Source of the DNA: a virus
Length of the DNA: 28,236 nt
Virus record (IMG/VR): IMGVR_UViG_3300045044_000104
Coordinates: 1-28,236 of that record
Direction: 5' to 3' (one strand)
The position numbers were made by a program, and so were the translations under genes. This document shows, one piece after another, positions 805 through 27,078 of the stretch. The notes under the pieces were generated by a model. That model ran no database searches, was not told where the DNA came from, and saw only the letters and a program-made list of their open reading frames with translations. Position 1 is the stretch's first letter; each line of letters begins with the position of its first letter.

Positions 805-2076
805 ATGGTGGACTCTTTCTCATCCGGCGAACTGGCGATCGCAATATGCGACCGCTGCCACCGGAAGCGTCCCTACATGATGCTGGGGCCGGACCCGAAC
901 GCGCCGGGCCTGAGGGTCTGCTACGACCCGCCGCCGGGCGAGCCGGGCTCGTGCGGCGATCAGTTCGACCCCTGGCGCCTGCCGGCGCGCCAGCCGGAGC
1001 CGATCGCGCTCAAATATCCGCGCCCCGATGCGCCGCTGACGATCGGGCCGGAGGCGCCATGGGCGCTGATCCTGCCGGGACCGAGGCCGCCGCCGCTCAT
1101 CCCGCTGCCGCCGACCGACATGCTGCTCGACAACTCAACGTTGCTCGAACTGAGCAATGGCGCGCAGGTCGGCGACGTGACGGTGATCGATCCGCAGCTA
1201 CCGGATACGGTCGAGACGCTAACGGTCCTGAACGACACTCGCTTCATCGTGCCGATGCTGTCGATCGACACGGGCAAGCTCGAATTGCGGATTGGCGAGC
1301 AAATCGTCTTCTCGGAAGAGCCGACGGTGCATCTTGTGCTGCGGGCGACGAACAGCTTCGGCCTGTTCCTCGACAAGGCCTTCGACATCCAGGTCATTCC
1401 GTTCCCGCCGCCGCCGCAGCCGCCGATCACGCTGACGCTCGACAACGCGACGGTGCCCGAGCATACGCCGGCCGCGATTATTGGTACGCTGGTCGCCAGC
1501 GATCCGAACACGCCGCCGGCCGCGCAGTCGATCACGGTGCAGAACGACGCGCGCTTCGAGGTCGTCACGCTCGACTCCTTCAGCGGCACGCTGAAGCTGA
1601 AGGCCGGTCAGCAGGTCGACTTTGCGACCGAGCCGAGCATTTCGCTGATCATCCGCACCACCAACACCTTTGCGCTCTTCCTGGAGCACACCTTCGTCAT
1701 CACGGTTCTCGGAACGCCGCATGTGCCGCCGACCGACATCACCCTCGACAACCTGACGGTGTTGGAGCACACGCTCGGCGCCCTGGTGGGAACGGTGAGC
1801 GTGGCCGACCCGCAGCTGCCGAGCACGACCGAGACCATCACGGTCAGCGACCCGCGCTTCACCGTCGCGCCGATCAACAATTTCTCCGGCACGCTGTCGT
1901 TGCTGCCGGGTCAGCAGGTCGACGCCGCGACCGAGCCAACGATCACGTTGACGCTCCGCGCCACCAACAGCTTCGGTCTCTTCCTCGACAAGCCGTTCAC
2001 CATCACCGTGACGCCGCTCGGGCCGCCGCCGACGGCGCGGGCGCACTCCAGCGCTTTCAGCAAGGCCTTCCAGTGA
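805..2076 (+). CDS. Virion-associated protein with Cys-rich N-terminus and three cadherin-like repeats
   Basis: 423 aa. The N-terminus carries a zinc-knuckle-like set (CDRCHRKRPYMM, then further Cys before CGDQFDPW), a module often seen at the start of phage tail proteins. A proline-rich stretch (about residues 60-104) leads into three tandem repeats of about 100 aa. Each contains LDN, a VxEHT-like or equivalent segment, DPxxP, RF, the G-x-L core, EP, and TN[ST]FxLFL near its end. These look like degenerate cadherin/Ig-type beta-sandwiches, suited to a stalk or adhesin. The C-terminus ends in RAHSSAFSKAFQ, a tail that recurs out of frame near 11,170. Start ATG 805 follows the preceding stop by 6 nt; GTG 808 is an alternative. 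Confidence 0.7.
   Translation: MVDSFSSGELAIAICDRCHRKRPYMMLGPDPNAPGLRVCYDPPPGEPGSCGDQFDPWRLPARQPEPIALKYPRPDAPLTIGPEAPWALILPGPRPPPLIPLPPTDMLLDNSTLLELSNGAQVGDVTVIDPQLPDTVETLTVLNDTRFIVPMLSIDTGKLELRIGEQIVFSEEPTVHLVLRATNSFGLFLDKAFDIQVIPFPPPPQPPITLTLDNATVPEHTPAAIIGTLVASDPNTPPAAQSITVQNDARFEVVTLDSFSGTLKLKAGQQVDFATEPSISLIIRTTNTFALFLEHTFVITVLGTPHVPPTDITLDNLTVLEHTLGALVGTVSVADPQLPSTTETITVSDPRFTVAPINNFSGTLSLLPGQQVDAATEPTITLTLRATNSFGLFLDKPFTITVTPLGPPPTARAHSSAFSKAFQ
1111..2022 (+). repeat. Three tandem cadherin-like repeat units within the CDS
   Basis: Units begin near 1111, 1423 and 1732, giving a period of about 300 nt. Conserved positions include LDN at the start, DP near residue 30 of the unit, EP before a hydrophobic strand, and TN[ST]FxLFL near the end. 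Units 1 and 3 share the longest near-identical stretch (ATNSFGLFLDK). The units are diverged at the nucleotide level, so this is an old duplication. Confidence 0.75.
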
Positions 2077-2083
2077 GGACTCC

Positions 2084-4015
2084 ATGGCCAACACGTATCG
2101 CACCATCGCGAATCTGCTGACGCTGCTGCCCGATAACACGACCGGGGCGATCTCGGCGCAGACCGATCGCGACTTCCTGATCTCGACCGGCGACATGGCC
2201 GGCGGCTTCGAGAGTGTGCGACAGAAATACGGGCTGACGGGGACAGACTCGACGGCCGACTGGAGCAAGATCGCGAGCGCGCTTAACTCGTCCTCGCAGG
2301 CGCTGTGGCCGCGCTTCGCGCCGGCCCTGAACACGGCCGGTAAGACGCTCACGCAGGAGCTTTACTGGGACGGCCTCTACATTGTCGGCCCGTCGGCCGG
2401 CGCCGACATGCCGTCGCTGAACGCCAACAATCCCGCCTCGGGCGCCGTTGTCTTCACGCCGGGCAATCAGGCGATCTACATGAAGAATCTGCGCTTCATG
2501 CAGGGCAAGGTGTGGTTCGACCTCGGTGCGCTGACTACCGAGTGCCCGGTCATGTGGTACGAGAATCTGTGGGCCAGCAACGTCAACGTCTTCTTGCGTG
2601 ACGGCTCGATCGCCAATGGCCTGACGCGCAAGGTCGACAAGCTGATCTTCCGGAACAACCTGCTCGATACGAACGTCCGCGGTCTGTTCATCAACGGTAA
2701 CGGTTCATCGCGGGCCTGGATTCAGAACAACCACGTCAAGAACTGCACGCGCTTCGGCATCATGAATGCCTGCGCGACGCCGCAGCCGGGAAACAATGGC
2801 AATTCCGACTTCATGTTCATCCATAACAACCTCGTCGAGGGGTTGTCCTACGATGGAGCGAACTCGAACGGTATTTATTCCGGCGGCCGTTACGCGACGA
2901 TCATCGGCAATATTGTCGCCAATGCTGTCTTCAACGGCGTCGCGACACAGACGAACTGGGAGCCTTACTACAACAAGACGCAGGGCTGCATTCTGATGGG
3001 CAATATGTCCGTCGATGGCGGCGCCGGCCAAGGCATGTTCGCCCTGAAGGGGATCGGCCGGGCGAACAGCGACAACTCGCCGCCGGGCTATGATTTCGTG
3101 CTCGTTGGCAATGTCGGCATAAGCACGGACGCCGATCAGTACCAGGAGAACGGTATCTGGCTACAGACGCAGGACGCTAACTGCGCGCACAACGTGTTCG
3201 ATGGCATCAAGGGATACGGCGCGCACGTTAACAAGAATACGGGCGACGTCTCGCAGCGGTCGTACAACCTGACTGTCACCGACAATCACTTCAAACACAA
3301 ATTCGGCTCCGGCATGGTCGCCGAAGGCGGCCATACCAACATCTGGGTCTGCCGCAACATCTATACCGGTCTCGGCGGCTCCGGTCAGAGCCTCGGTGTC
3401 CGCTTCGACAGTCAGAATCTTGGCGACATGGTCAACTACCGTTGCCAGGACAACACGATTCATCTCATGAACGTGACGGCGGCGGCGCGCTTCGATTGCA
3501 TCCATCTGAAGCCGCAGGGAACCGACACCCTGCTCGGTTGTCTCGTCATCGGGAACGTCATGGATTTGGCCGCGTGTCCCGACATCACCAACGTCTTCGG
3601 GGTCACGATCGAAGGCACGGGGCCGGTCGTGAACCTCGTGATCGACAAGAATCAATTCCTCAATTTCACCGATCCGACCAAGGTGATCCGCTGCATCACT
3701 GGCGGTAAGACGGGCTTCATCAACATCTACGACAACATCGGCTTCGCCAATGACAATACGGGTACGGCGACGATCCCGGTCGGCAGCGCCAGCGTCACGA
3801 TCTCGCACGGCATGCCGCAGACCCCGCACCTCGACCCGACACCCGACCTGAGCGACATTCGCATCATCTCGTCGTCCTTCCTGTTCGGTGCCTCGCAGGC
3901 GCGCATCGCGAACATCACGGCGACGACCTTCGACGTCGTTCTCGACGTGGCGGTGACGGGCTCCGACTGGAGCTTCAAGTGGCGGGTCCGCAAGACGAAG
4001 TGGAGTTTCAACTAA
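2084..4015 (+). CDS. Parallel beta-helix tailspike
   Basis: 643 aa. The N-terminal ~50 residues (LLTLLPDNTTGAISAQTDRD) match the short virion-attachment segment common to phage spike and fibre proteins. From about residue 130 to 540 the sequence is a ladder of short Asn/Gly-rich coils (FRNNLLDTNVRG, IQNNHVKNC, HNNLVEG, IGNIVANAV, VTDNHF, CQDNTIH, IGNVMDL, DKNQFLNF), the signature of right-handed parallel beta-helix proteins such as pectate-lyase-like tailspikes. The last ~75 residues form a separate beta-rich cap. Likely role: binding and perhaps cleaving host surface polysaccharide; no catalytic residues can be assigned. ATG 2084 follows a GAGGA ribosome binding site. Its stop overlaps the next start as TAATG. 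Confidence 0.8.
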   Translation: MANTYRTIANLLTLLPDNTTGAISAQTDRDFLISTGDMAGGFESVRQKYGLTGTDSTADWSKIASALNSSSQALWPRFAPALNTAGKTLTQELYWDGLYIVGPSAGADMPSLNANNPASGAVVFTPGNQAIYMKNLRFMQGKVWFDLGALTTECPVMWYENLWASNVNVFLRDGSIANGLTRKVDKLIFRNNLLDTNVRGLFINGNGSSRAWIQNNHVKNCTRFGIMNACATPQPGNNGNSDFMFIHNNLVEGLSYDGANSNGIYSGGRYATIIGNIVANAVFNGVATQTNWEPYYNKTQGCILMGNMSVDGGAGQGMFALKGIGRANSDNSPPGYDFVLVGNVGISTDADQYQENGIWLQTQDANCAHNVFDGIKGYGAHVNKNTGDVSQRSYNLTVTDNHFKHKFGSGMVAEGGHTNIWVCRNIYTGLGGSGQSLGVRFDSQNLGDMVNYRCQDNTIHLMNVTAAARFDCIHLKPQGTDTLLGCLVIGNVMDLAACPDITNVFGVTIEGTGPVVNLVIDKNQFLNFTDPTKVIRCITGGKTGFINIYDNIGFANDNTGTATIPVGSASVTISHGMPQTPHLDPTPDLSDIRIISSSFLFGASQARIANITATTFDVVLDVAVTGSDWSFKWRVRKTKWSFN

Positions 4016-7000
4016 TGCCGTTCGTCGATGGAGTCGGGTCGACGGGCTCGATCGCGTCGGACTCCTATGTGAATCACGGCGTCGTCTTCGACGGCGTCAA
4101 CGACTATCTCCATCGCGGCAGCGCTCTGACCGGCGATGCAGACGGACCGCTCGGTATCCTCTCCTTCTGGTTCAAAATCACGGGTGGTAACGGCGCGTCG
4201 AGCCGGGCGATCCTGCGCAATCACTCGACGGCGACGGTCAACGTCAGCCTCGTCAGTACGAACAAGCTCAACATCACGCTGAATGCCCTCGGTGGCACGC
4301 CGTCGTTCTCCGGCACCTCGACGACGGTATTCCTCGCCGATCCGACGACGTGGCATCACTTCATCGCCTCGTGGGACACCAATCATGCGGCCGGCGCCAA
4401 GATACTGAATATGTACGTCGACGGGATCAACGTGAACCCCGTCCTGACCGATACCGGCGCCGCCTTCAACATCAACTATACGCGCGGTGACTGGGGAATC
4501 GGCGCCGCCGACAACGGCATCAACAAGTTTACGGGCGAGCTGGGTGAGTTCTACTTCAACACGCACGAATTCCTCGACGTCACCCAGTTGCCGGTCCGCT
4601 ACAAGTTCCGCAGCCTCACCGATTGTCCGGCCGATCTCGGCGAGAACGGCCAGCTGCCGACCGGCACGTCGCCGATCCTCTATCTGAACGGCGACAAGTC
4701 GACGTTCAACCACAATAACGGAACCGGCGGCGACATGATCGTCGTCGGTGCGCTCGACGATTCCTCACCCCCCATGTGCGTCGTGAGCCCAGGCGGCGAC
4801 GTGCTTCTGACGACGCAGACCTTCATCAGTCGCAGCGCCTCGACGCAGACCTCACTGCCGCATCGCTTCGTCGGTTGTTTCGCGCGCGGCGACGTGCCGG
4901 CCGGCACGCATGTCGTGTTGAAGAATGGTGGCATCGACTGGCCGTCGCAGCAGGACGAGCCGAATTACTATGCCGATGGCAGTTTGCGGCTGGTCGTGTT
5001 CCGCGCCGTCATCAACAGCCTCGCGGCCGGGGCGAGCTGGACGTGGCAGCTTTACAAGCGTAGCGGCACCTACACGCCGGCCGCGCCGATCCGCAGCAAG
5101 ACCGACATCACCGGCAGCCACGATTACAAGACCCTGCTGACCGATCTTCAGGATCACACCGGGGCCACGGTGGGGTCCGGCGCCTATACGACCGCCGCCA
5201 ACACGAATCTCGCCGATGCGGTCCGCACGCAGACCTATGCGAGCGGCGCCCAGTGCATCGCCTTCAAGACCTGGGGCAAGTTCCTCGACAACGTCGGCGG
5301 TGCGGCGCATGCGCATCTGCAAGAGAAGTCGATCTACGAGGTGTGGACCAACCCGGCCGATAACAGCGTGCTGGCGATCATGCACACCGCGCTGATCAGC
5401 CAGGGCTGGCGCAATGTCGCGAGCCCGGTCGGCTTGTCCTTCAAGACCTCGCGCAACGACGGTGCCTCGATCGTGCTGCAGCCGTCCGGACAGGCTTACA
5501 ACTTCGCGCCGACCGATATCGATATCACCAACAACCGCATCACGGCCGGTGCCATGTCGGCGCTGCGCACCGGGCAGATGGTGAAGATCAGCACCAGCGG
5601 GTCGCTGACCGGGACGGGGCTGACGGCCGGCCACGTCTACTTCGTGCGCAACAACGGCGACAGCTATATCTACCTGCACATCTCGGCCGACGACGCCCTC
5701 AGCGGCGACATCTACGGCTCGGGCTCGGAGACCATCGACCTGACCGGCCAGGGCACCGGTACGCATACGGTGACGCTCTACAACTATCTCTACCCGCATT
5801 GCGGTTTCAATCTGCGCGACGCCGTCGGCCAGGAGACCTGGACCTCGCACAAGCCGCTCATCGATCAGCAATTCACGCCGACCGAGAAGCAGTATTACTC
5901 GAATGCCGGCTTTGCATGGCCGTTCGACTACAGCGTCAATCCGGGCGACAACAACGACGTCGACTACTACGCTGGTAGCTTGTGTTGGCCGGTGATGCCG
6001 GCCCGCGACGACTACGCCTCGCCCGGTTATCTGCGCTACTTCATGGACGACTACGGTGGCAGCCCCAGCCTCTATGTCTGGGGCACTGGGGCCTCGCGCG
6101 CATGGCTCAAGAACTCGGCCGTCAATCTGAAGGTCGCGCGCATCCTCGGGCTGTGCGCTGCGCATCTACAGATGATCTGGTGGGACCCGAGCCTCGTCAG
6201 CGGCCAGGAATGCAACCGGGTTCTGACCCTCAATAATGGCAGCAACGACGCCGGCTTGGCGTTCAGCGGCATGGGCACGCCGATGGCCAATGTCGGCTAC
6301 TTCAACTGGGCCGGTGCCTATGAGGCGGATGTCTACTGGGGTTCGCTCTGGGGCGGGATGCGGGGTGACGGCAATCGCCGCGATGCGCCCTCGAAGCCGA
6401 GCGGTGACGGGTCGCACTGGCCGCAGATGTCCTATGTCGCCTTCCTGTTGACCGGCGATCCGATCCTGCGTGAGCTGTGCTATCTCAGCGCCAACCACCC
6501 GATATGGCATTCGAACGTCGCTGGCTCGACGCGCACCAAGGCGAAGGGCGGGGTCACCTACTACGGCAATGTCTGTCATTGGCAGCAGATGCGCTGCGAT
6601 GGCTACGGCTTGATGCACGGGCTCTATGCCGCCGTGCTGGCGCCGTCCGGCTCGGGCGAGAACGCCATGTTCACGAAGATTTTCAACGACGACATGGCCT
6701 ATTACCTGCAGTACGCCGCCAACGAGGACGGCAGCTACGGGAACTACGGGCACTGGACGCCGCGGGCCAACTCGTGGGACGCGCCGAACGTGAGTCCGAC
6801 CAACGCCGCCAACTACATCACCGGCGGTCCCTGGCAGATGAACTGGAATGTCTGTGTCTACCTGCAGGCGAGCCGCCTGTGGGGCACCACCAACGCGATC
6901 GCCGTCGCCAACGAGTTCGTCAAGTTCACCAAGAACATGGCCGGCGCCGGTACGTTCGAGGGCAATGGTCCTTACTGGGCCAACAGTTATTTCATGAGCA

Positions 7001-7512
7001 TGCGGGCCTCGACGTCGGCGCTGACTTACATGGCGCCGTCGGACTGGGGCATCGGCAACGGCACCGGCACCTTCGGCGCCGCCAACACGATCGCCCTCAA
7101 TACCGCCCTGCTCACAGGTGTCGCCGTCGGCGGCCAGATTCAGTTCATCGAGGATAGCGGCGTCACGTTGCCGCCGGAGCTGAGTGGCGGCACCAAGTAC
7201 TGGATCGTCTCGATCAGCGGGCTCAACATTCAAATCAGCGACACCAGTGGTGGCCCGGTCAAGGCGTTCACCAATAACGGTCATGCCGTCAACGCCTTCT
7301 TCTTCCCGCCGCCGGGCGTATCGGGATTCCAGCCGGCCGGTGGCGAGCCGGACTATGCGCAGATGCTGACGGCGCCGATGGTCTATGCGGCGGCGCTCGG
7401 GCTACCCGGTTGTGACACGATCGCGGCCGATCTCCTGAACCGGCTCAGCGTCATGAGTTGGCAGCTCTCTGGCGACCCGCGCTTCGCCTGGAATACACGG
7501 TTGCTGCAATGA
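4015..7512 (+). CDS. Giant spike: LamG-like lectin fused to polysaccharide-lyase-like scaffold
   Basis: 1165 aa. I chose ATG 4015 over an upstream in-frame start because it forms a TAATG coupling with the previous stop. Residues ~15-190 look like a LamG/concanavalin fold (VVFDGVNDYLHRG, LSFWFKITGG, TTWHHFIASWD, YVDGINV, GELGEFYFN). Residues ~250-440 resemble the N-terminal region of PcRGLX/YetA-type exo-rhamnogalacturonan lyases (FARGDVPAG, then YADGSLRLVVFRA near residue 320). Aromatic-rich segments around residues 630-980 (YWGSLWGGMRGDG, GNVCHWQQMRCDGYG, GPWQMNWN) fit a helical toroid. Two similar beta-modules interrupt it at ~500-592 and ~1015-1098. Likely a virion-bound glycan-binding and degrading enzyme. 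Enzyme class is inference; it could be a binding protein only. Confidence 0.65.
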   Translation: MPFVDGVGSTGSIASDSYVNHGVVFDGVNDYLHRGSALTGDADGPLGILSFWFKITGGNGASSRAILRNHSTATVNVSLVSTNKLNITLNALGGTPSFSGTSTTVFLADPTTWHHFIASWDTNHAAGAKILNMYVDGINVNPVLTDTGAAFNINYTRGDWGIGAADNGINKFTGELGEFYFNTHEFLDVTQLPVRYKFRSLTDCPADLGENGQLPTGTSPILYLNGDKSTFNHNNGTGGDMIVVGALDDSSPPMCVVSPGGDVLLTTQTFISRSASTQTSLPHRFVGCFARGDVPAGTHVVLKNGGIDWPSQQDEPNYYADGSLRLVVFRAVINSLAAGASWTWQLYKRSGTYTPAAPIRSKTDITGSHDYKTLLTDLQDHTGATVGSGAYTTAANTNLADAVRTQTYASGAQCIAFKTWGKFLDNVGGAAHAHLQEKSIYEVWTNPADNSVLAIMHTALISQGWRNVASPVGLSFKTSRNDGASIVLQPSGQAYNFAPTDIDITNNRITAGAMSALRTGQMVKISTSGSLTGTGLTAGHVYFVRNNGDSYIYLHISADDALSGDIYGSGSETIDLTGQGTGTHTVTLYNYLYPHCGFNLRDAVGQETWTSHKPLIDQQFTPTEKQYYSNAGFAWPFDYSVNPGDNNDVDYYAGSLCWPVMPARDDYASPGYLRYFMDDYGGSPSLYVWGTGASRAWLKNSAVNLKVARILGLCAAHLQMIWWDPSLVSGQECNRVLTLNNGSNDAGLAFSGMGTPMANVGYFNWAGAYEADVYWGSLWGGMRGDGNRRDAPSKPSGDGSHWPQMSYVAFLLTGDPILRELCYLSANHPIWHSNVAGSTRTKAKGGVTYYGNVCHWQQMRCDGYGLMHGLYAAVLAPSGSGENAMFTKIFNDDMAYYLQYAANEDGSYGNYGHWTPRANSWDAPNVSPTNAANYITGGPWQMNWNVCVYLQASRLWGTTNAIAVANEFVKFTKNMAGAGTFEGNGPYWANSYFMSMRASTSALTYMAPSDWGIGNGTGTFGAANTIALNTALLTGVAVGGQIQFIEDSGVTLPPELSGGTKYWIVSISGLNIQISDTSGGPVKAFTNNGHAVNAFFFPPPGVSGFQPAGGEPDYAQMLTAPMVYAAALGLPGCDTIAADLLNRLSVMSWQLSGDPRFAWNTRLLQ

Positions 7513-18565: not shown

Positions 18566-20863
18566 ATGGCACGCGGTGCAGGACTGGGCGCGATCAGCGC
18601 CTTCGGCGCATCTCCCTCGTTCGGCGGCATGCGCGGACGCGCGGCGCGGCCGGTGACGATCGGGGGCGGGGCCGGCGTCGTGCAGCCAATGCTGAAGGCC
18701 CCTGTGACTCCCGGGCTCGGGCCGTTGAACAAGAAGGGGCAGGCGCGGCTGCCGTCGAACATGAGCGGACTCACGGCGACGAAGCTGGGCGGTCTCGGCG
18801 CGGTGATGCGGCGCGGGCGCAACCCGTTCTTCAAGAAAATGACGCCGTTTCAGGAAGGCGGCGCGGTCGATGGGAGCGTCGATCCAGAAGAGTACGCACG
18901 GCTGCAGGAAGAGCTGGATCAGGCGGCCCGGGATCAGCAGGACTCGGCGGATGCCGCGAGCGCCAGTGCCGACACAAGTGGTGGTGGTGCAATCGACGCC
19001 ATGGCGCCGACCGGACCCGCTATCAGTGGTGGTGCGCTGAACAAGCTGTGGTCGGACGCGCAGCAGAAGCAGGAAGCGCTCCGCGTCGCGCGCGAGAACC
19101 TGATGGCCTCCTACCAGAATCCGCAGCATCCTAACTTCAACCCGGCGCTCGTCCAGTTCGGCCTCGCGATGATGGGGCCGACGCGCGGCGGCACGCTGGG
19201 CGAGGCGTTCTCGCGCGCCGGCCAGGAAGCGATCCCGGTGTGGCAGCAGGAGCAGCGGCAGCGTGACGCCATGAAGCTCGGCGCCGAGCGGCTCGGTGTG
19301 CAGATGACGGAGGACGAGGCCAAGTTCGCGCAGGACGCGTTCAAGACTGCGGTCACGAACAATGCCAGGGTTGCGGCGGCGCAGGCGCGGCAGTCACAGG
19401 TGGGTTTGCCGGCAATCGCCAAGGACACCAATTACCTGAACTGGCTCGACAGCCCGGAAGCGGCGGCGCAGATGTCGCCGCAGCAGATCACCTACGCGAA
19501 GCGCGCAGTGCAGGCCGATATCGCCAAGCGCACGCATATTGGCGGCGGCGCGGGCGCGGGCGGCGATATCTGGACCGTAGCGCCGAACTACGACACCGGA
19601 CAAAAAGGCGCCCCGCCGGTCCAGAGTCCGGTAAGCGTTGGGCCCATGACGACGCGCGGTGGTGGTGGTGGTGGTGGCGGTGCGATTCCAGCTCCGACAC
19701 CAGCCCCAGCACCCGCACCACCGCCCGTTCCAGTCGCCGCTGCCAAAGCGCCAACCGCAACGCTCGCATCGGCCGCTGCGCCACCGGCCGCGGCCGCACC
19801 GGCAGCGCCGCCAGTTGCGCCGCCAGCCGCCGCCGCACCGCCGGCTGCTGCCGCACCAGCAACGCCGCCGCCGGTTGCGCCGCCGGCAGGCGGTCCTGGC
19901 GTTCCCGCCACAGCGCCGGATCAGAACACCGCCGCCCAGGTCGCGGCAGCGACCCCGGATGTGATCGCCAAGATGCCACTGGAGGACCTGTCCAAGCTGT
20001 ACGCAAATAAGCCCTATCTGTCCGATGCGCAGAAGACGGCGGCCCGCAATCGTTGGCTGCAGCTCGGGCAGCCGAGTATGGCGGTCGATCAAGCCACGGC
20101 GGCAGCCAAGCCGCCAGCTGCTGCGGCGGCGGCGCCGGCTGCAGCACCGACCGCGGGTCCGACCGCGCTGCCGGCGCAGGCCAAGCCCGGTCAACTGTTC
20201 ACACCGCAGAACGATTTCGAGAAGCAATGGGCACCGGACGGCTACGTGGTCGAGCCCCTGGGCCGGATGCCGGTCATCAACAAGCCGCTCGGCGCCGCCT
20301 ACATGACCAATGATCCGATCGCGCGGCGCGCGGCCTATACCGACTCGGTGAAGGAGATCATCGCCAATCAGAAGGATGCGCGCGGCGCCACCTCGAACCG
20401 CGCGCTCATCAAAGAATTCATATCCATGTCAGACAAGATGCCATCAACTGGCACTCTGACCCCCTATTTCGCCAAGTTCGGCAATATCATGCAGAACCTG
20501 ACCGGCTACGACCTGAGCGGCACCCGCTTCGATCCGAACCTGCCGGATGCGATGTACGCGATCACCAATAAGATGATGCTCGACTTCATGAACGGCCGCC
20601 TCTCGACCGGTGTGTCGGATGCCGACCGCGTCGCCGTCACGTCGATGCTGCCACAGGTCACGATGACGAAGACCGGCGCCCGCCTCGTCGGCAAGCTGCT
20701 CGATACGATGGAAGAGCGGCGTGCCAACATCGCCAACGTCGAGAACTATTATCTCCAGCATGTGAAGGGCGATCTCATGGGCGCCCAGCAATACGCGCTG
20801 CAATGGGCGAATCTCAATCCGATGATCCCCGATACGGACGCCTTCCTGAAATCGGTGCAGTAG
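18566..20863 (+). CDS. Large internal virion (ejection) protein with Pro/Ala linkers
   Basis: 765 aa. N-terminal basic, Gly-rich region, then PFQEGGAVDGSVD near residue 95 (the same GGAV motif as in the two preceding large proteins), a helical, Gln-rich segment (~105-300), and a low-complexity Pro/Ala linker (~373-450), with a second Ala-rich stretch near 510-535. The C-terminal ~200 residues are a folded helical domain (LIKEFISMSDKMPSTGTLTP; YAITNKMMLDFMNGRLSTGV; VENYYLQHVKGD), a layout seen at the ends of phage ejection-type proteins. The start is 1 nt after the previous stop; the next gene starts directly after its stop. Role as an ejection protein is inferred. Confidence 0.65.
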   Translation: MARGAGLGAISAFGASPSFGGMRGRAARPVTIGGGAGVVQPMLKAPVTPGLGPLNKKGQARLPSNMSGLTATKLGGLGAVMRRGRNPFFKKMTPFQEGGAVDGSVDPEEYARLQEELDQAARDQQDSADAASASADTSGGGAIDAMAPTGPAISGGALNKLWSDAQQKQEALRVARENLMASYQNPQHPNFNPALVQFGLAMMGPTRGGTLGEAFSRAGQEAIPVWQQEQRQRDAMKLGAERLGVQMTEDEAKFAQDAFKTAVTNNARVAAAQARQSQVGLPAIAKDTNYLNWLDSPEAAAQMSPQQITYAKRAVQADIAKRTHIGGGAGAGGDIWTVAPNYDTGQKGAPPVQSPVSVGPMTTRGGGGGGGGAIPAPTPAPAPAPPPVPVAAAKAPTATLASAAAPPAAAAPAAPPVAPPAAAAPPAAAAPATPPPVAPPAGGPGVPATAPDQNTAAQVAAATPDVIAKMPLEDLSKLYANKPYLSDAQKTAARNRWLQLGQPSMAVDQATAAAKPPAAAAAAPAAAPTAGPTALPAQAKPGQLFTPQNDFEKQWAPDGYVVEPLGRMPVINKPLGAAYMTNDPIARRAAYTDSVKEIIANQKDARGATSNRALIKEFISMSDKMPSTGTLTPYFAKFGNIMQNLTGYDLSGTRFDPNLPDAMYAITNKMMLDFMNGRLSTGVSDADRVAVTSMLPQVTMTKTGARLVGKLLDTMEERRANIANVENYYLQHVKGDLMGAQQYALQWANLNPMIPDTDAFLKSVQ

Positions 20864-23140
20864 ATGGCCGACGTCGATCCGTTCACCGATCAGCCGGTCC
20901 CCGGAACCGATCAAGCCGCCGCACCAACGGCGCCGCCCGCGGCGCCGGCAACCGATCCGTTCACCGATCAGCCGTTGACACCACAGGGCACGCCGCAGGC
21001 GGTGCCGGTCATGATGCAATCGATGGGCGAGGCGGCGAAGGACTTCTACAAGAAGGCGGTCACGACCGCCCAGATGGGCATTTCCGGACTGCTCGGCATC
21101 CCGCACGAAATCGCCGACTGGCTCGGCCCGAGCCAGACACTCAAGCGCATCGAGGAGAACAAGAAGGCCGGCCTCCCCACGCACGACTTCCTGCTGGAGA
21201 TGCTGGGCGAGGACGGCGATCTCGCGACGCATCCGCCGCCGACCGTGCCGGCCAGCGTGCCGCCGCATTTGTGGACCAGCAAAGAAGCGCAGGCGGCGAT
21301 CACAAAGGCCTTCCCCGATCTTCCTTACGAGGTGGCCACAACGCCGACCGGGCGGGTGCTGCAGGCCGGTGGGGCCGGCGCCATCGCGGGCGCCCCCTTC
21401 GGTGCCTTCGGCGGATTCCGCGGTCTCATGCTCGGGATGCTGGCCGGTGGCGAGACCTCGGCGGCGGCCCAGACGGCCGCCGAGAACAACGCCTCGCCGT
21501 TCGTCCAGAACATGGTCTCGTCGCTGATGCCGTTTGCTACCGCCGCCACGGCCGGCCTCGGCGGCCTCGCCATGCCGTCGCCCAACCGGGCGCTGGCGCG
21601 CACGCTGGCCGATGTGTCGGAGGCGGAGTGGCAGCGCGCCGCCGAGACCTTCCGGATGGCGCAACAGCAGGGCCAGCGAACCACATGGTCGGAGGCCTTG
21701 AACGAGGCGACGCACGGCCGCCTCAAAGGGCTGGCGGCTTTGCAGCGCGTCGCCGAGACGACGCCGGGCGGCGCCGAGGTCATGGGGCCGATCATGGCCG
21801 GGCGGCAACCGGGCAACCGCGCCGCCTTCTTCCGCCAGACCGCCGCCATGCCCGGCGCCCAGCCGGGCCAGGAGACGATCGACGTTCCGACGATGCTGAA
21901 GAACGCCGCGGTGCGGACTGTCGGCCAAGCCTATCACGACCTGCGCGCCGTGACGCGGCCGGCCTACGAAGCGGCGGCGAATGAGACCGTCGATCCCGGC
22001 GCCTTGCGCGCCATCACCGATCGGGTCGATGACCTCATCAATAATGCCTCGACCAACAGCGAACGGGCCGTGCTGCAGAACTTCCGCAACGACTTTACGG
22101 ATACGCCGGCCCAGCCGGCGGCGACGCAAGTCCAGGGGATGCAGCGCGTCACCACGCCGGCCCAGCCGGAGACGCTGAAGACCGACATCGGCCGGCTCGA
22201 CGGCCTGCGCAAGCAGTGGCGTAACCGCATCGCGCTTGCCGATCAGGGAACGCAGCCGGGGGTGCCACAGCCGGGACAGGGCGGGCTCGATGTGGCGCCG
22301 CTCGATGCGGCCGTGGCTGCCAAGCTCACGCCGATCGTCAATCAAGTGCGCGACCTGATGACGAACACGAGCCAGATTTACGCCTATGCGCGCGCCTATC
22401 ACCAAGCGACTCTGGAGGGGGTGATCAAGCCGATGCTGCGCGGCCCGATCGGCGCGCTCGCCGAGGAGGGCGGCATCGGGGCGCCGACGCTGAAGGGCCA
22501 GCGCAGCATCATCATGCCGACCGGCGAGCAGCAGAACCTCGATGCACAGACCATACGCACCGTGGCGCAGCAATTGCAGCGGAACGATCCCAGCGGGCAG
22601 GCGCTCTCGAAGTGGGTGCGGCAGAACCTGGAGTCGCAGTTCGACTTCATGGACCGCGATGTTGGCTCGAAGGGGGAGTGGACCGGGGCCAAGTTCGCCG
22701 ATCGGGTGCTCGGCGGTCCGGGGATGCAGCGGGCCAATGTGAACGCATTGCTCGAAAGTCTGCCGAACGGGGCGGCGATCGCCGAGGGGATGCGCAACTT
22801 CTTCCGCATCTTGCATGCACAGTCCTTCCGCGAGCCGAGTGCGGCCGAGGGGGCGGCGGCGATGGGGCAGGCGAAGGAGGAGCTGGAAGCGGGGCGGCTG
22901 CCGCTGACGACCTTCAAGCCGGCGAGTGTCTTGCGGCAACGGATCGACCGCTGGCGTTATCGGGTGAATGCGCGGACGTTGGCGAACATGCTGACCGATC
23001 CGAACATGGAGCGGCAATTACGGCAGCTCTCGGGGATATCGCCTTACAGCAATCAGGCGCGGACGATCTTGCTGTCGATGCTGGGCGCGCAGGCGGCGAC
23101 GGACAATCCGCCGGTGCCTACAGCAGGTGAAGGACCATAG
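20864..23140 (+). CDS. Large internal virion/ejection protein
   Basis: 758 aa, starting on the base after the previous stop. It opens with two copies of DPFTDQP separated by an Ala/Pro linker. Residues ~168-196 form a Gly/Ala-rich hydrophobic stretch (GGAGAIAGAPFGAFGGFRG and on) that could insert in membrane. The rest is long helical sequence with RRP-free, Gln/Arg-rich coils and a C-terminal part (LANMLTDPNMERQLRQLS, NQARTILLSMLGAQA) typical of phage proteins annotated as ejection or tape-measure-like. With no long-tail genes seen, the ejection role is more likely. Last gene of the virion block; its 3' end overlaps a - strand gene by 23 nt. Confidence 0.65.
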   Translation: MADVDPFTDQPVPGTDQAAAPTAPPAAPATDPFTDQPLTPQGTPQAVPVMMQSMGEAAKDFYKKAVTTAQMGISGLLGIPHEIADWLGPSQTLKRIEENKKAGLPTHDFLLEMLGEDGDLATHPPPTVPASVPPHLWTSKEAQAAITKAFPDLPYEVATTPTGRVLQAGGAGAIAGAPFGAFGGFRGLMLGMLAGGETSAAAQTAAENNASPFVQNMVSSLMPFATAATAGLGGLAMPSPNRALARTLADVSEAEWQRAAETFRMAQQQGQRTTWSEALNEATHGRLKGLAALQRVAETTPGGAEVMGPIMAGRQPGNRAAFFRQTAAMPGAQPGQETIDVPTMLKNAAVRTVGQAYHDLRAVTRPAYEAAANETVDPGALRAITDRVDDLINNASTNSERAVLQNFRNDFTDTPAQPAATQVQGMQRVTTPAQPETLKTDIGRLDGLRKQWRNRIALADQGTQPGVPQPGQGGLDVAPLDAAVAAKLTPIVNQVRDLMTNTSQIYAYARAYHQATLEGVIKPMLRGPIGALAEEGGIGAPTLKGQRSIIMPTGEQQNLDAQTIRTVAQQLQRNDPSGQALSKWVRQNLESQFDFMDRDVGSKGEWTGAKFADRVLGGPGMQRANVNALLESLPNGAAIAEGMRNFFRILHAQSFREPSAAEGAAAMGQAKEELEAGRLPLTTFKPASVLRQRIDRWRYRVNARTLANMLTDPNMERQLRQLSGISPYSNQARTILLSMLGAQAATDNPPVPTAGEGP
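20875..20974 (+). repeat. 22-bp direct repeat encoding DPFTDQP twice
   Basis: Exact 22-nt copies occur at 20875-20896 and 20953-20974, separated by an Ala/Pro-coding spacer. Both are in frame and encode (x)DPFTDQP at the N-terminus of the large ejection protein. Nucleotide identity suggests recent duplication or selection on the peptide, for example as a docking or processing motif. Confidence 0.8.
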
Positions 23141-23354
23141 AGAGCAGCAGGATCGCGAGTCCGGCGAAGCCGCACAGCAGGATTGCCGCCCACAGGATGG
23201 CGCCGAGCCCGGCGATCGCTTCGGCCCAGAAGGTGAGAAGGCTGGGGCGCAGCCGGCGCGGTGTCATCAGCCGTTCGGCGACGATGAGGACGGGCAGCGC
23301 CGCGAGGGTGGCGAGGGCGGTCCAAACGACGATGGCGGCGAGGGTCGAGGCCAT
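23118..23354 (-). CDS. Small two-TM membrane protein, holin-like
   Basis: 78 aa on the - strand from ATG 23354; ATG 23363 and TTG 23390 in frame would lengthen it. Two hydrophobic helices at residues ~4-26 (TLAAIVVWTALATLAALPVL) and ~49-76 (LGAILWAAILLCGFAGLAIL and on) flank a basic loop TPRRLRP, giving class-II-holin-like topology. The opposite strand here is very polar and not credible as coding. No Shine-Dalgarno is visible, but TTGTAT and TATATG boxes lie so that transcription would start at or near the ATG. It is the only credible - strand gene and converges with the virion operon. It could still be a chance ORF. Confidence 0.5.
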   Translation of the reverse strand: MASTLAAIVVWTALATLAALPVLIVAERLMTPRRLRPSLLTFWAEAIAGLGAILWAAILLCGFAGLAILLLSMVLHLL

Positions 23355-23390
23355 AATACGCATATAGCGTGCGATGCGTAGCCAATACAA
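23355..23390 (-). promoter_or_regulatory. Putative leftward promoter giving a leaderless start
   Basis: Reading the - strand, TTGTAT (23390-23385), 18 nt, TATATG (23366-23361), 6 nt, then ATG at 23354. The TTG box is 36 nt from the start codon. The -10 hexamer matches TATAAT at four of six positions. No ribosome binding site lies between. Confidence 0.45.
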
Positions 23391-23401
23391 GATAGCAGGG
23401 T

Positions 23402-23429
23402 TTATTCCCCGGTATTCCCGTTATCCCCA
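23402..23429 (+). repeat. Phased TAT(T)CCC repeats, one DnaA-box-like
   Basis: TATTCCCC (23403), TATTCCCG (23413) and TTATCCCCA (23421-23429) follow one another at about 10-nt steps. The last differs from the DnaA box TTATCCACA at one position. Related 9-mers TTGTCCCCA (23549-23557) and TTATCCCTA (23560-23568) lie 11 nt apart upstream of the HTH gene. These may be operators or origin elements. Confidence 0.4.
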
Positions 23430-23450
23430 ACGATATAACAAATCTCGTAT

Positions 23451-23468
23451 CTGCATCTTTTGATGCAG
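23451..23468. promoter_or_regulatory. Perfect inverted repeat, candidate operator
   Basis: CTGCATC-TTTT-GATGCAG: two 7-nt perfect arms around a 4-nt T loop, in the AT-richer region about 100 nt upstream of the HTH gene and between the divergent starts. No T-run follows, so it is more likely a dimer-binding site than a terminator. Confidence 0.5.
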
Positions 23469-23520
23469 GTTCATGTCGACCATTCTGCCTTGGCCCGGCG
23501 GGCTCTGCTTCGGTCCGCCA

Positions 23521-23567
23521 TAAAAAAATTTCTTGCCTTTCCCATCGGTTGTCCCCATCTTATCCCT
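23521..23567 (+). promoter_or_regulatory. Putative leaderless promoter of the HTH gene with A-tract
   Basis: A 12-mer TAAAAAAATTTC (23521-23532) abuts a TTGCCT box (23533-23538) that lies exactly 35 nt before the ATG at 23568. Seventeen nt downstream is CATCTT, a weak -10. No ribosome binding site lies before the ATG. Both the 12-mer and the TTGCCT box recur upstream of the helicase gene. Confidence 0.5.
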
Positions 23568-23795
23568 ATGCGTAATCCAACGGTTCAGGCGATCTTCGAC
23601 AGGCTCGGCGGCCGTAACAGGCTGGCCTTCTACTTCGAGAAGACGCCGCAGGCACTCCTGTACTGGCACCGGGCGGGAATCCCCTACCGCTACTGGCCGC
23701 GATTGATTCGAATGTCGCGCGGTGCTATCACTCTCGAAGACCTTTACCGCGCCAGTTTGAAGGCTTCCAGGGATCATGCGGCCGACGCCGCGTGA
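23568..23795 (+). CDS. Cro/YdaS-like helix-turn-helix regulator
   Basis: 75 aa from ATG 23568. An in-frame ATG at 23460 would add 36 residues, but that stretch covers the A-tract, promoter-like boxes and inverted repeat, so I reject it. The sequence VQAIFDRLGGRNRLAFYFEK, then ALLYWHRAGIPYRYWPRLIR, then GAITLEDLY fits the small Cro/YdaS family: helix 1 and LGG at 13-15, recognition region around 25-38, conserved W-x3-GIP-x-R-x-W at 33-43. It should bind DNA as a dimer, probably the inverted repeat or TTATCCC boxes beside it, and control the divergent starts and the helicase operon. Sites are inference. Confidence 0.7.
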   Translation: MRNPTVQAIFDRLGGRNRLAFYFEKTPQALLYWHRAGIPYRYWPRLIRMSRGAITLEDLYRASLKASRDHAADAA

Positions 23796-23823
23796 TCCCT
23801 TTGCATATCCCGGGCCAACTTAG

Positions 23824-23881
23824 TAAAAAAATTTCATAAAGAATCCTTGCCTCAAATCCGTCATGGATATAGCCTGGGCGG
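23824..23881 (+). promoter_or_regulatory. Putative leaderless promoter of the replication operon
   Basis: The same 12-mer TAAAAAAATTTC (23824-23835) recurs here, followed after 11 nt by TTGCCT (23847-23852), again exactly 35 nt before the start codon (23882). A possible -10 is TATAGC (23868-23873). The A-tract is shifted by 11 nt, about one helical turn, relative to the copy upstream of the HTH gene. No clear ribosome binding site precedes the ATG. Confidence 0.5.
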
Positions 23882-25537
23882 ATGGCTATTAGCATCCACA
23901 CGATCGGTAATAGCTTCCACGTCTTCGGCGCGTTCGACGTCAAGGAATACCTGAAATCCCTCGGCGCCCGCTGGGACTCCGCGAACAAGTCGTGGGTCCT
24001 CACCGCCACCCCCGACGCCGCCCGCCAGCTCGACCTCGCCTTCGCCACGATGCCGGTCAACCGCGACGTCGGCTTCTATCGCATCCTCGCCACCGGCTCC
24101 GCCGCCGCCGAGCACAAAGCCGCCGACAAGAACGCCGCCGCTGCCATCCCCTACATCACTACCTCGGCCTGGGCGCATCAACGACAAGCCTTCTGGTTCG
24201 GCGCCACCCTCCCGGCCGTGATGCTGGCCATGGACATGGGCACCGGCAAATCGCTCGTCGCCGCCGCCATCGTCCGCCATGCCGACGCTCAGGCCGTCCT
24301 CGTGTGCGGCCCGCTCTCGGCGTGCGGCGTGTGGGCGCGCGAGTTCAGCCGCCATCTGCCCGGCCAGTACAACGTGCTGGTGCTGAACAAGGGCGGCGTC
24401 GCCAAGAAACTCACGGCCGCGATCGAACACCTGCGGCTATGCCGGGCCCGGCGCGAGCGCGGCGTGATCGCCATCAACTACGAGTCGGCATGGCGCGAGC
24501 CGATGGCCGACTTCCTCATCAAAGCCGCCTTCGATGCGCTGATCATGGATGAATCGCATCGGCTCAAGACCCACAACGGCCGCGCCAGCAAGTTCTTCAC
24601 CAAGCTCGCCGCCGGCATCCCCAAGCGCCTGTGCCTCACCGGCACCCCGATGCCGCATTCGCCGCTCGACATCTTCGCCCAGTATCGCGCCCTCGACCCC
24701 TCGATCTTCGGCCGCGTCTTCACCGCCTTCCGGCTGCACTATGCGGTGATGGGCGGCTTCAACAATCACGAGGTCGTGCGCTTCAAGAACCTCGACGACT
24801 TGCATCAGCGCTATGCGCGCATCGCCTACCGGATCACGAAGGACGAGGCGATCGAGCTGCCGCCACGCACCGACACTACCCGCGAGTTCACACTCTCGGA
24901 CCGCGCACTCTCCGTCTACGCCAGCCTGGAGGATCACTTCTGGGCCATGGTCGAGGGCGGTGAGATCACCGTCGCCAACGCCCTCGTCGAACTGCTGCGC
25001 CTGCAGCAATGCACCTCCGGCTATGTGAAGACTGACGACGGCATCGAGAGCGAAGTCGATACCGGCAAGGCCGATCTGCTCGATGACATCATCGAGGACT
25101 ACGGCGACTTCAAGAAGCATCCGCTCGTCGTCTTCTCGCGCTTCCATCACGACCTCGACAAGGTGAAGGCGCTGGCCATGCTTCATGGCCTCGCCTACGG
25201 CGAGGTCAGCGGCCGGCAGAAGGACCTGACGCCCCACGCCACCATCCCGGATGGCATCGACATCATGGGCGTCCAGATTCAATCAGGCGGCGTCGGCATT
25301 GATTTGTCGCGCGCCCACACCGCGGTCTACTATTCGATCGGCTGGTCGCTCGGGGACTATTTGCAATCACGCGACCGGCTGCATCGCCCGGGGCAGGTGA
25401 ACCGCGTGACGTACATCCATCTGATCGCGGCGGGAACGATCGACGAGGTCCAGTATGCGGCACTGCAGAAGCGCCAGGACCTCGTGGAAGGCGTGCTCGC
25501 TGGCGGTCGGCATCCACAGCAGCGAGCGGTGGCATGA
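23882..25537 (+). CDS. SNF2-family DNA helicase/translocase
   Basis: 551 aa. Residues ~6-40 (FHVFGAFDVKEYLKSLGARW, D32, then KSW) form a small N-terminal module like DUF5710/HARP-type domains. Motif I is MDMGTGKS (117-124), motif II DESH (223-226), motif III LTGTP (~257), motif V GGVGIDL and motif VI QSRDRLHRPGQ (495-505), all in the usual SNF2/superfamily-2 order and spacing. It uses ATP to move on or remodel DNA, probably in replication or recombination. It is the first gene of the replication block; its stop overlaps the next ATG as ATGA. All core motifs are intact. Confidence 0.9.
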   Translation: MAISIHTIGNSFHVFGAFDVKEYLKSLGARWDSANKSWVLTATPDAARQLDLAFATMPVNRDVGFYRILATGSAAAEHKAADKNAAAAIPYITTSAWAHQRQAFWFGATLPAVMLAMDMGTGKSLVAAAIVRHADAQAVLVCGPLSACGVWAREFSRHLPGQYNVLVLNKGGVAKKLTAAIEHLRLCRARRERGVIAINYESAWREPMADFLIKAAFDALIMDESHRLKTHNGRASKFFTKLAAGIPKRLCLTGTPMPHSPLDIFAQYRALDPSIFGRVFTAFRLHYAVMGGFNNHEVVRFKNLDDLHQRYARIAYRITKDEAIELPPRTDTTREFTLSDRALSVYASLEDHFWAMVEGGEITVANALVELLRLQQCTSGYVKTDDGIESEVDTGKADLLDDIIEDYGDFKKHPLVVFSRFHHDLDKVKALAMLHGLAYGEVSGRQKDLTPHATIPDGIDIMGVQIQSGGVGIDLSRAHTAVYYSIGWSLGDYLQSRDRLHRPGQVNRVTYIHLIAAGTIDEVQYAALQKRQDLVEGVLAGGRHPQQRAVA

Positions 25538-27042: not shown

Positions 27043-27078
27043 GGAGGCGGCCTCGGGAGGGCCGCCTCCTTGTCCTTT
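27043..27078 (+). terminator. Rho-independent-type terminator
   Basis: GGAGGCGGCC (27043-27052) pairs perfectly with GGCCGCCTCC (27060-27069) around a 7-nt loop, giving a 10-bp GC-rich stem followed by TTGTCCTTT. It lies 12 nt after the preceding stop and 12-20 nt before the primase start. The T-tract is interrupted, so it may only partly stop transcription and act as an attenuator for the primase. Confidence 0.65.

Follow-up and report, generated by a model that had tools for sequence, protein, structure and literature searches.

Putative sigma70-type leaderless promoters with UP-like A-tracts upstream of the HTH and helicase genes of a phage

Results

Organisation of the locus

The window, the whole 28,236 nt stretch of DNA that was analysed, corresponds to the complete IMG/VR record IMGVR_UViG_3300045044_000104 and represents an uncultured phage with a G+C content of 65%. 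A long rightward block of genes ending at 23140 is followed by a control region, an HTH gene, a gene for an SNF2-type helicase and further replication-type genes, with a divergent gene at the left of the control region:

23118..23354, minus strand: divergent gene for a hydrophobic protein of 78 aa with no family match, ATG at 23354
23568..23795, plus strand: gene for an HTH protein of 75 aa, weakly similar to PHROG 8008 (DNA binding protein) and Pfam YdaS
23882..25537, plus strand: gene for an SNF2-type DNA helicase (PHROG 62, E 3e-108), the first gene 3' of the second A-tract copy described below

Three structural proteins have their nearest matches in Caulobacter phages, and the phages nearest by primase include those of Sphingomonas and Paracoccus, so the host is probably alphaproteobacterial. 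Two regions, 877-7512 and 18566-23140, encode large proteins with no Pfam or PHROG match, some of which gave no match or a short one when compared with phage records; the tail-type genes lying between these blocks resemble Caulobacter phage genes. Directly 5' of a primase-type gene, a strong hairpin at 27043-27069 (GGAGGCGGCCTCGGGAGGGCCGCCTCC) with a short T-rich tail is likely to be a terminator.

The similarity of the HTH protein to Pfam YdaS (E 0.0067, 16.7 bits) falls below the curated cut-off of 30. Its single-sequence fold is all-helical, at low confidence, and searches of the PDB by sequence and by fold returned no usable or structural match. Judged by its sequence, it is likely to be a Cro-like early regulator, through which regulation of the region may be exerted. 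The divergent 78 aa hydrophobic protein occupies the place that the repressor has in a lambda-type phage.

The helicase start codon is firm, because an in-frame TAG at 23870 lies 12 nt 5' of the ATG, with no alternative start within reach; the N-terminus of the protein also aligns with those of relatives. For the HTH gene, the alternative in-frame starts are codon 46, 45 codons downstream, or at least 78 nt upstream, making 23568 the probable start, if less strictly fixed than that of the helicase. Both genes have an AUG with no close in-frame alternative upstream, as is expected of leaderless genes.

Sequence words shared by the two upstream regions

Two words recur upstream of the HTH and helicase genes:

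23521..23532, plus strand: TAAAAAAATTTC A-tract, copy 1, with A7 at -46 to -40 (proximal UP subsite)
23533..23538, plus strand: TTGCCT, predicted from the sequence as the -35 of the HTH promoter
23824..23835, plus strand: TAAAAAAATTTC A-tract, copy 2, with A7 at -57 to -51 (distal UP subsite)
23847..23852, plus strand: TTGCCT, likewise predicted as the -35 of the helicase promoter

Just these two copies of TAAAAAAATTTC are present, no others being found across the whole window at up to two mismatches, and on both strands of the record AAAAAAA occurs only as their A-runs. TTGCCT occurs four times in total on the two strands of the window. Its first T is exactly 35 nt from the A of the ATG at both the HTH gene (23568) and the helicase gene (23882), and the A-tract is separated from the box by 0 nt in copy 1 and by 11 nt in copy 2. 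The recurrence of both words, the common distance to the start codons and the two spacings had all been put forward in the original prediction, and each is borne out by these coordinates.

When the 86 nt upstream regions were subjected to dinucleotide shuffling, a shared word of at least 12 nt was found with p 0.002, a shared run of at least 7 nt at the same offset (CTTGCCT) with p 0.011, and the shared 12-mer and same-offset 7-mer jointly with p ~1e-4. The description of the arrangement as a duplicated cassette did not survive: outside the 12-mer and 7-mer the two upstream regions show no alignment, which points to two promoters of like parts rather than a duplicated block. An intrinsic terminator was rejected as an explanation of the A/T tracts, as a GC stem adjoining them was not found, and a scan of viral contigs for the exact combination of A-tract and TTGCCT was set aside as irrelevant, half of the 80 loci recovered being one AT-rich coding sequence.

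Predicted core promoters

A strict scan of the control region for sigma70 promoters, the consensus of which is TTGACA-N16..18-TATAAT, returned no sites. Using a score matrix of our own, based on E. coli base frequencies, with which 56,400 positions were ranked, -10 hexamers were predicted for both rightward genes and a complete promoter for the divergent gene:

23556..23561, plus strand: CATCTT, predicted to be the HTH -10, at spacer 17 and ending 6 nt short of the ATG, rank 38/56,400
23870..23875, plus strand: TAGCCT, predicted to be the helicase -10, at spacer 17 and ending 6 nt short of the ATG, rank 30/56,400
23385..23390, minus strand: TTGTAT, predicted -35 of the divergent leftward promoter, from the sigma70 matrix scan
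23361..23366, minus strand: TATATG, predicted to be the divergent -10, at spacer 18 and ending 6 nt short of the ATG, rank 10/56,400

The rightward boxes are weak, TTGCCT matching the sigma70 consensus at 4/6 positions and CATCTT and TAGCCT at 3/6 each; both hexamers keep A-11 and T-7. At all three starts the gap to the start codon is 6 nt, within the approximately 6-7 nt characteristic of leaderless genes, so +1 is predicted to fall on the A of the ATG. The divergent gene has an alternative in-frame ATG 9 nt upstream.

When 26 start codons were scored at gaps of 5-7, the three in the control region reached 10.0, 8.3 and 8.1, and the best of the other 23 reached 2.6. When compared with shuffled versions of the AT-rich region around it, each of the same three starts is only marginal (p 0.024, 0.063 and 0.044), so the weight rests on the three jointly and on their identical 6 nt gap. 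The leaderless starts originally proposed therefore gain in silico support from the -10 at spacer 17, the 6 nt gap, the separation of three starts from 23 others and the helicase gene of a relative (below), and are held back by the marginal standing of each start in shuffles. The absence of Shine-Dalgarno sequences is weak evidence for them, because many other genes of the phage also lack a clear one.

The control region further contains a hairpin at 23450-23470 (CTGCATCTTTTGATGCAG) and a set of short repeats:

23402..23429, plus strand: TTATTCCCC / GTATTCCCG / TTATCCCCA repeats, at 10 and 9 bp spacing
23549-23568, plus strand: TTGTCCCCA (23549) and TTATCCCTA (23560), either side of the copy 1 -10

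TTATCCCCA differs from the DnaA box TTATCCACA at a single position, and the TTATTCCCC to TTATCCCTA repeats may possibly represent operator, origin or DnaA-like sites. In an unbiased shuffle test the cluster was not significant, with 111/400 shuffles matching the repeat count, and operator or DnaA-like repeats (TTATCCCC) were rejected as the main feature of the region on this basis.

A-tracts in the register of UP elements

The register of the A-tracts was counted with TTGCCT as -35 to -30, and UP scores were calculated against a consensus that reportedly originates from Estrem and colleagues. The proximal subsite of copy 1 scores 7/8. Downstream of the copy 2 A-tract, a second A-rich stretch, ATAAAGAAT, adjoins TTGCCT, and the 22 nt stretch including it reaches 11/14 when compared with the full UP consensus, within the top 7 of all positions. 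In both copies, A/T tracts thus fall within the UP register (-46..-38 and/or -57..-47), and the difference between the 0 and 11 nt spacings is explained by where A7 lies: on the proximal subsite for copy 1, on the distal subsite for copy 2. The A-tracts are probably UP-like, and may function as such. Of the UP-element role envisaged in the original prediction, the register and the spacings speak in favour, and the absence of an A-tract at the helicase promoter of the closest relative found, L286, speaks against. In UP elements, a distal A-tract at -57 to -54 is followed by a T-tract at -53 to -47, with the proximal subsite starting from -46 (PMC5664571), and either subsite can act alone (PMC4390567).

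Promoter geometry in related phages

No close relatives were found by queries with the helicase, phrog_23155-type, large structural or HTH proteins alone; relatives such as L286 were obtained via alignments. The helicase of L286 is 46% identical over nearly its full length and, as here, stands 3' of apparent lysis-type genes. Its start region reads TTGACG-N18-AATAAT-acgtcc-ATG and lacks a Shine-Dalgarno, its alternative starts being in-frame codon 11 and, upstream, only a TTG 36 nt away. In L020, the HTH gene 5' of the helicase is preceded by TTGACT-N17-TATGTT-ccgccc-ATG, with A-tracts upstream, 35 nt from TTG to ATG and no alternative start before codon 43. A third related phage, L009 (69% GC), has TTGACA boxes and a predicted leader of 0-3 nt at both of its divergent genes; its AACGTTTCG-like repeats at 2580-2820, around these two near-leaderless promoters, are a good candidate for an operator array.

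Across 104 related loci and 469 starts there was no enrichment of the leaderless geometry, with 8 instances at gaps of 5-7 and 3-11 at the control gaps, and it was rejected as a general rule for the helicase lineage as a whole. Several of the matches among relatives are spurious, a better start with a Shine-Dalgarno being located just downstream: L013, L045, L014 and L104 were discarded as leaderless cases since such a start is present within a few codons. The geometry, present at the L286 helicase and L020 HTH genes and not enriched among the 104 loci, is, as far as these sequences indicate, common to a few relatives and not a lineage rule.

Discussion

The interpretation favoured here, which we hold to be reasonably probable, is that the HTH and helicase genes are transcribed from sigma70-type leaderless early promoters carrying UP-like A-tracts. 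A polymerase with the housekeeping, sigma70-type factor would read both, recognising TTGCCT as the -35 and, 17 nt further on, CATCTT or TAGCCT as the -10, and RNA synthesis would start at the A of the ATG or within 1-2 nt of it. The A-tract would act as an UP element bound by the alpha C-terminal domains of RNA polymerase, proximally at the HTH promoter and, at the helicase promoter, distally together with the A-rich proximal half, and may offset the weak core boxes. The resulting mRNAs would be translated by 70S ribosomes without Shine-Dalgarno pairing. With the divergent membrane-protein gene showing the same geometry, the late/early boundary appears to hold three leaderless promoters.

It is unlikely that the similarities are a coincidence of AT-rich intergenic DNA, with one longer transcript from upstream being translated by non-Shine-Dalgarno initiation on its leader. 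Such initiation would suit a phage in which so many genes have no Shine-Dalgarno, the single-start shuffle values are just 0.02-0.06, and other promoter-like sites exist nearby (TTTGCA-N18-TAAAAA at 23824, scoring 10.2, and ATAACA-N18-TTTGAT at 23459, scoring 8.3); against this stand the joint probability of the repeat and offset, the clear gap in score between three starts and all others, and the sharing of the geometry by L286. Alternatively, the A-tract and CTTGCCT could be sites for a regulator, whether the HTH protein of the phage or an AT-binding protein of the host, with the genes read from elsewhere and possessing leaders. The gene beside copy 1 does encode a DNA-binding protein, the YdaS of E. 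coli CP-933P binds repeats overlapping both promoters (PMC8630535), and the possible TTATCCCC repeats flank the copy 1 -10. Regulator sites would, however, provide no reason for the exact 35 nt to two ATGs or for -10-like hexamers at spacer 17; the matrix scan found no clearly superior sigma70 site 5' of the HTH gene, and the unbiased shuffle test gave no significance for the repeat cluster. We regard this alternative as improbable.

A promoter of another class, read by a polymerase that is phage-modified or carries an alternative sigma factor, and having TTGCCT as its own specific box upstream, would account for the identity of this box in both copies, its difference from TTGACA and the distance of the -10 hexamers from TATAAT. 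Of the window proteins that were searched, none was recognised as sigma-like, TTG with A-11/T-7 at spacer 17 is compatible with sigma70, and relatives carry ordinary TTGACG/TTGACT boxes, making this explanation very improbable.

Experimental mapping has established leaderless starts in numerous bacteria as well as for the lambda repressor, and this mode of initiation is best documented in host genes and CI-type repressors. As it is already known, the present case is tidy rather than surprising. Among alphaproteobacteria, Caulobacter has 375 leaderless mRNAs, translated as well as others (PMC4117421), Sinorhizobium 171, all starting with AUG (PMC3616915), and Bradyrhizobium 192 exact leaderless mRNAs, with a motif noted as similar to the one in leaderless genes of phages (PMC4842269). 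The promoters described here similarly are placed for RNA to start at AUG, in a GC-rich genome and with no Shine-Dalgarno, but they belong to a phage, are predicted and have A-tracts in UP register. Phage examples include lambda cI and paaR2 of CP-933P, both leaderless and situated at a divergent control region where YdaS is Cro-like (PMC8630535); the likeness lies in a phage regulatory gene with a leaderless start at such a region, whereas the leaderless gene there encodes a CI-type repressor and the candidates here are a Cro/YdaS-like gene and a replication helicase. In Deinococcus-Thermus, a TANNNT -10 motif adjoins ORFs, and such promoters gain strength from a -35 box at 17 bp (PMC12340547). 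TAGCCT, 6 nt before the helicase ATG, fits this motif, whereas copy 1 has CANNNT and there is no sign of a Deinococcus host. UP elements of the rrnB P1 type and the partial UP of Mu Pm have A/T tracts at -46..-38 and -57..-47 above a weak core; the putative UP element here differs in consisting of the proximal subsite only in copy 1 and mainly the distal one in copy 2.

The promoter reading fixes start codons and yields exact predictions. If true, the early regulator and replication helicase would both be leaderless, and the phage would provide a compact natural test of the reasons for which phages use this mode, as well as of how UP elements rescue weak cores. A more doubtful extension is that the entire early switch of this phage lineage, comprising the divergent membrane gene, the HTH regulator and the replication helicase, is leaderless, with UP-dependent weak cores. 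Were this the case, early protein synthesis would proceed via 70S initiation instead of Shine-Dalgarno pairing.
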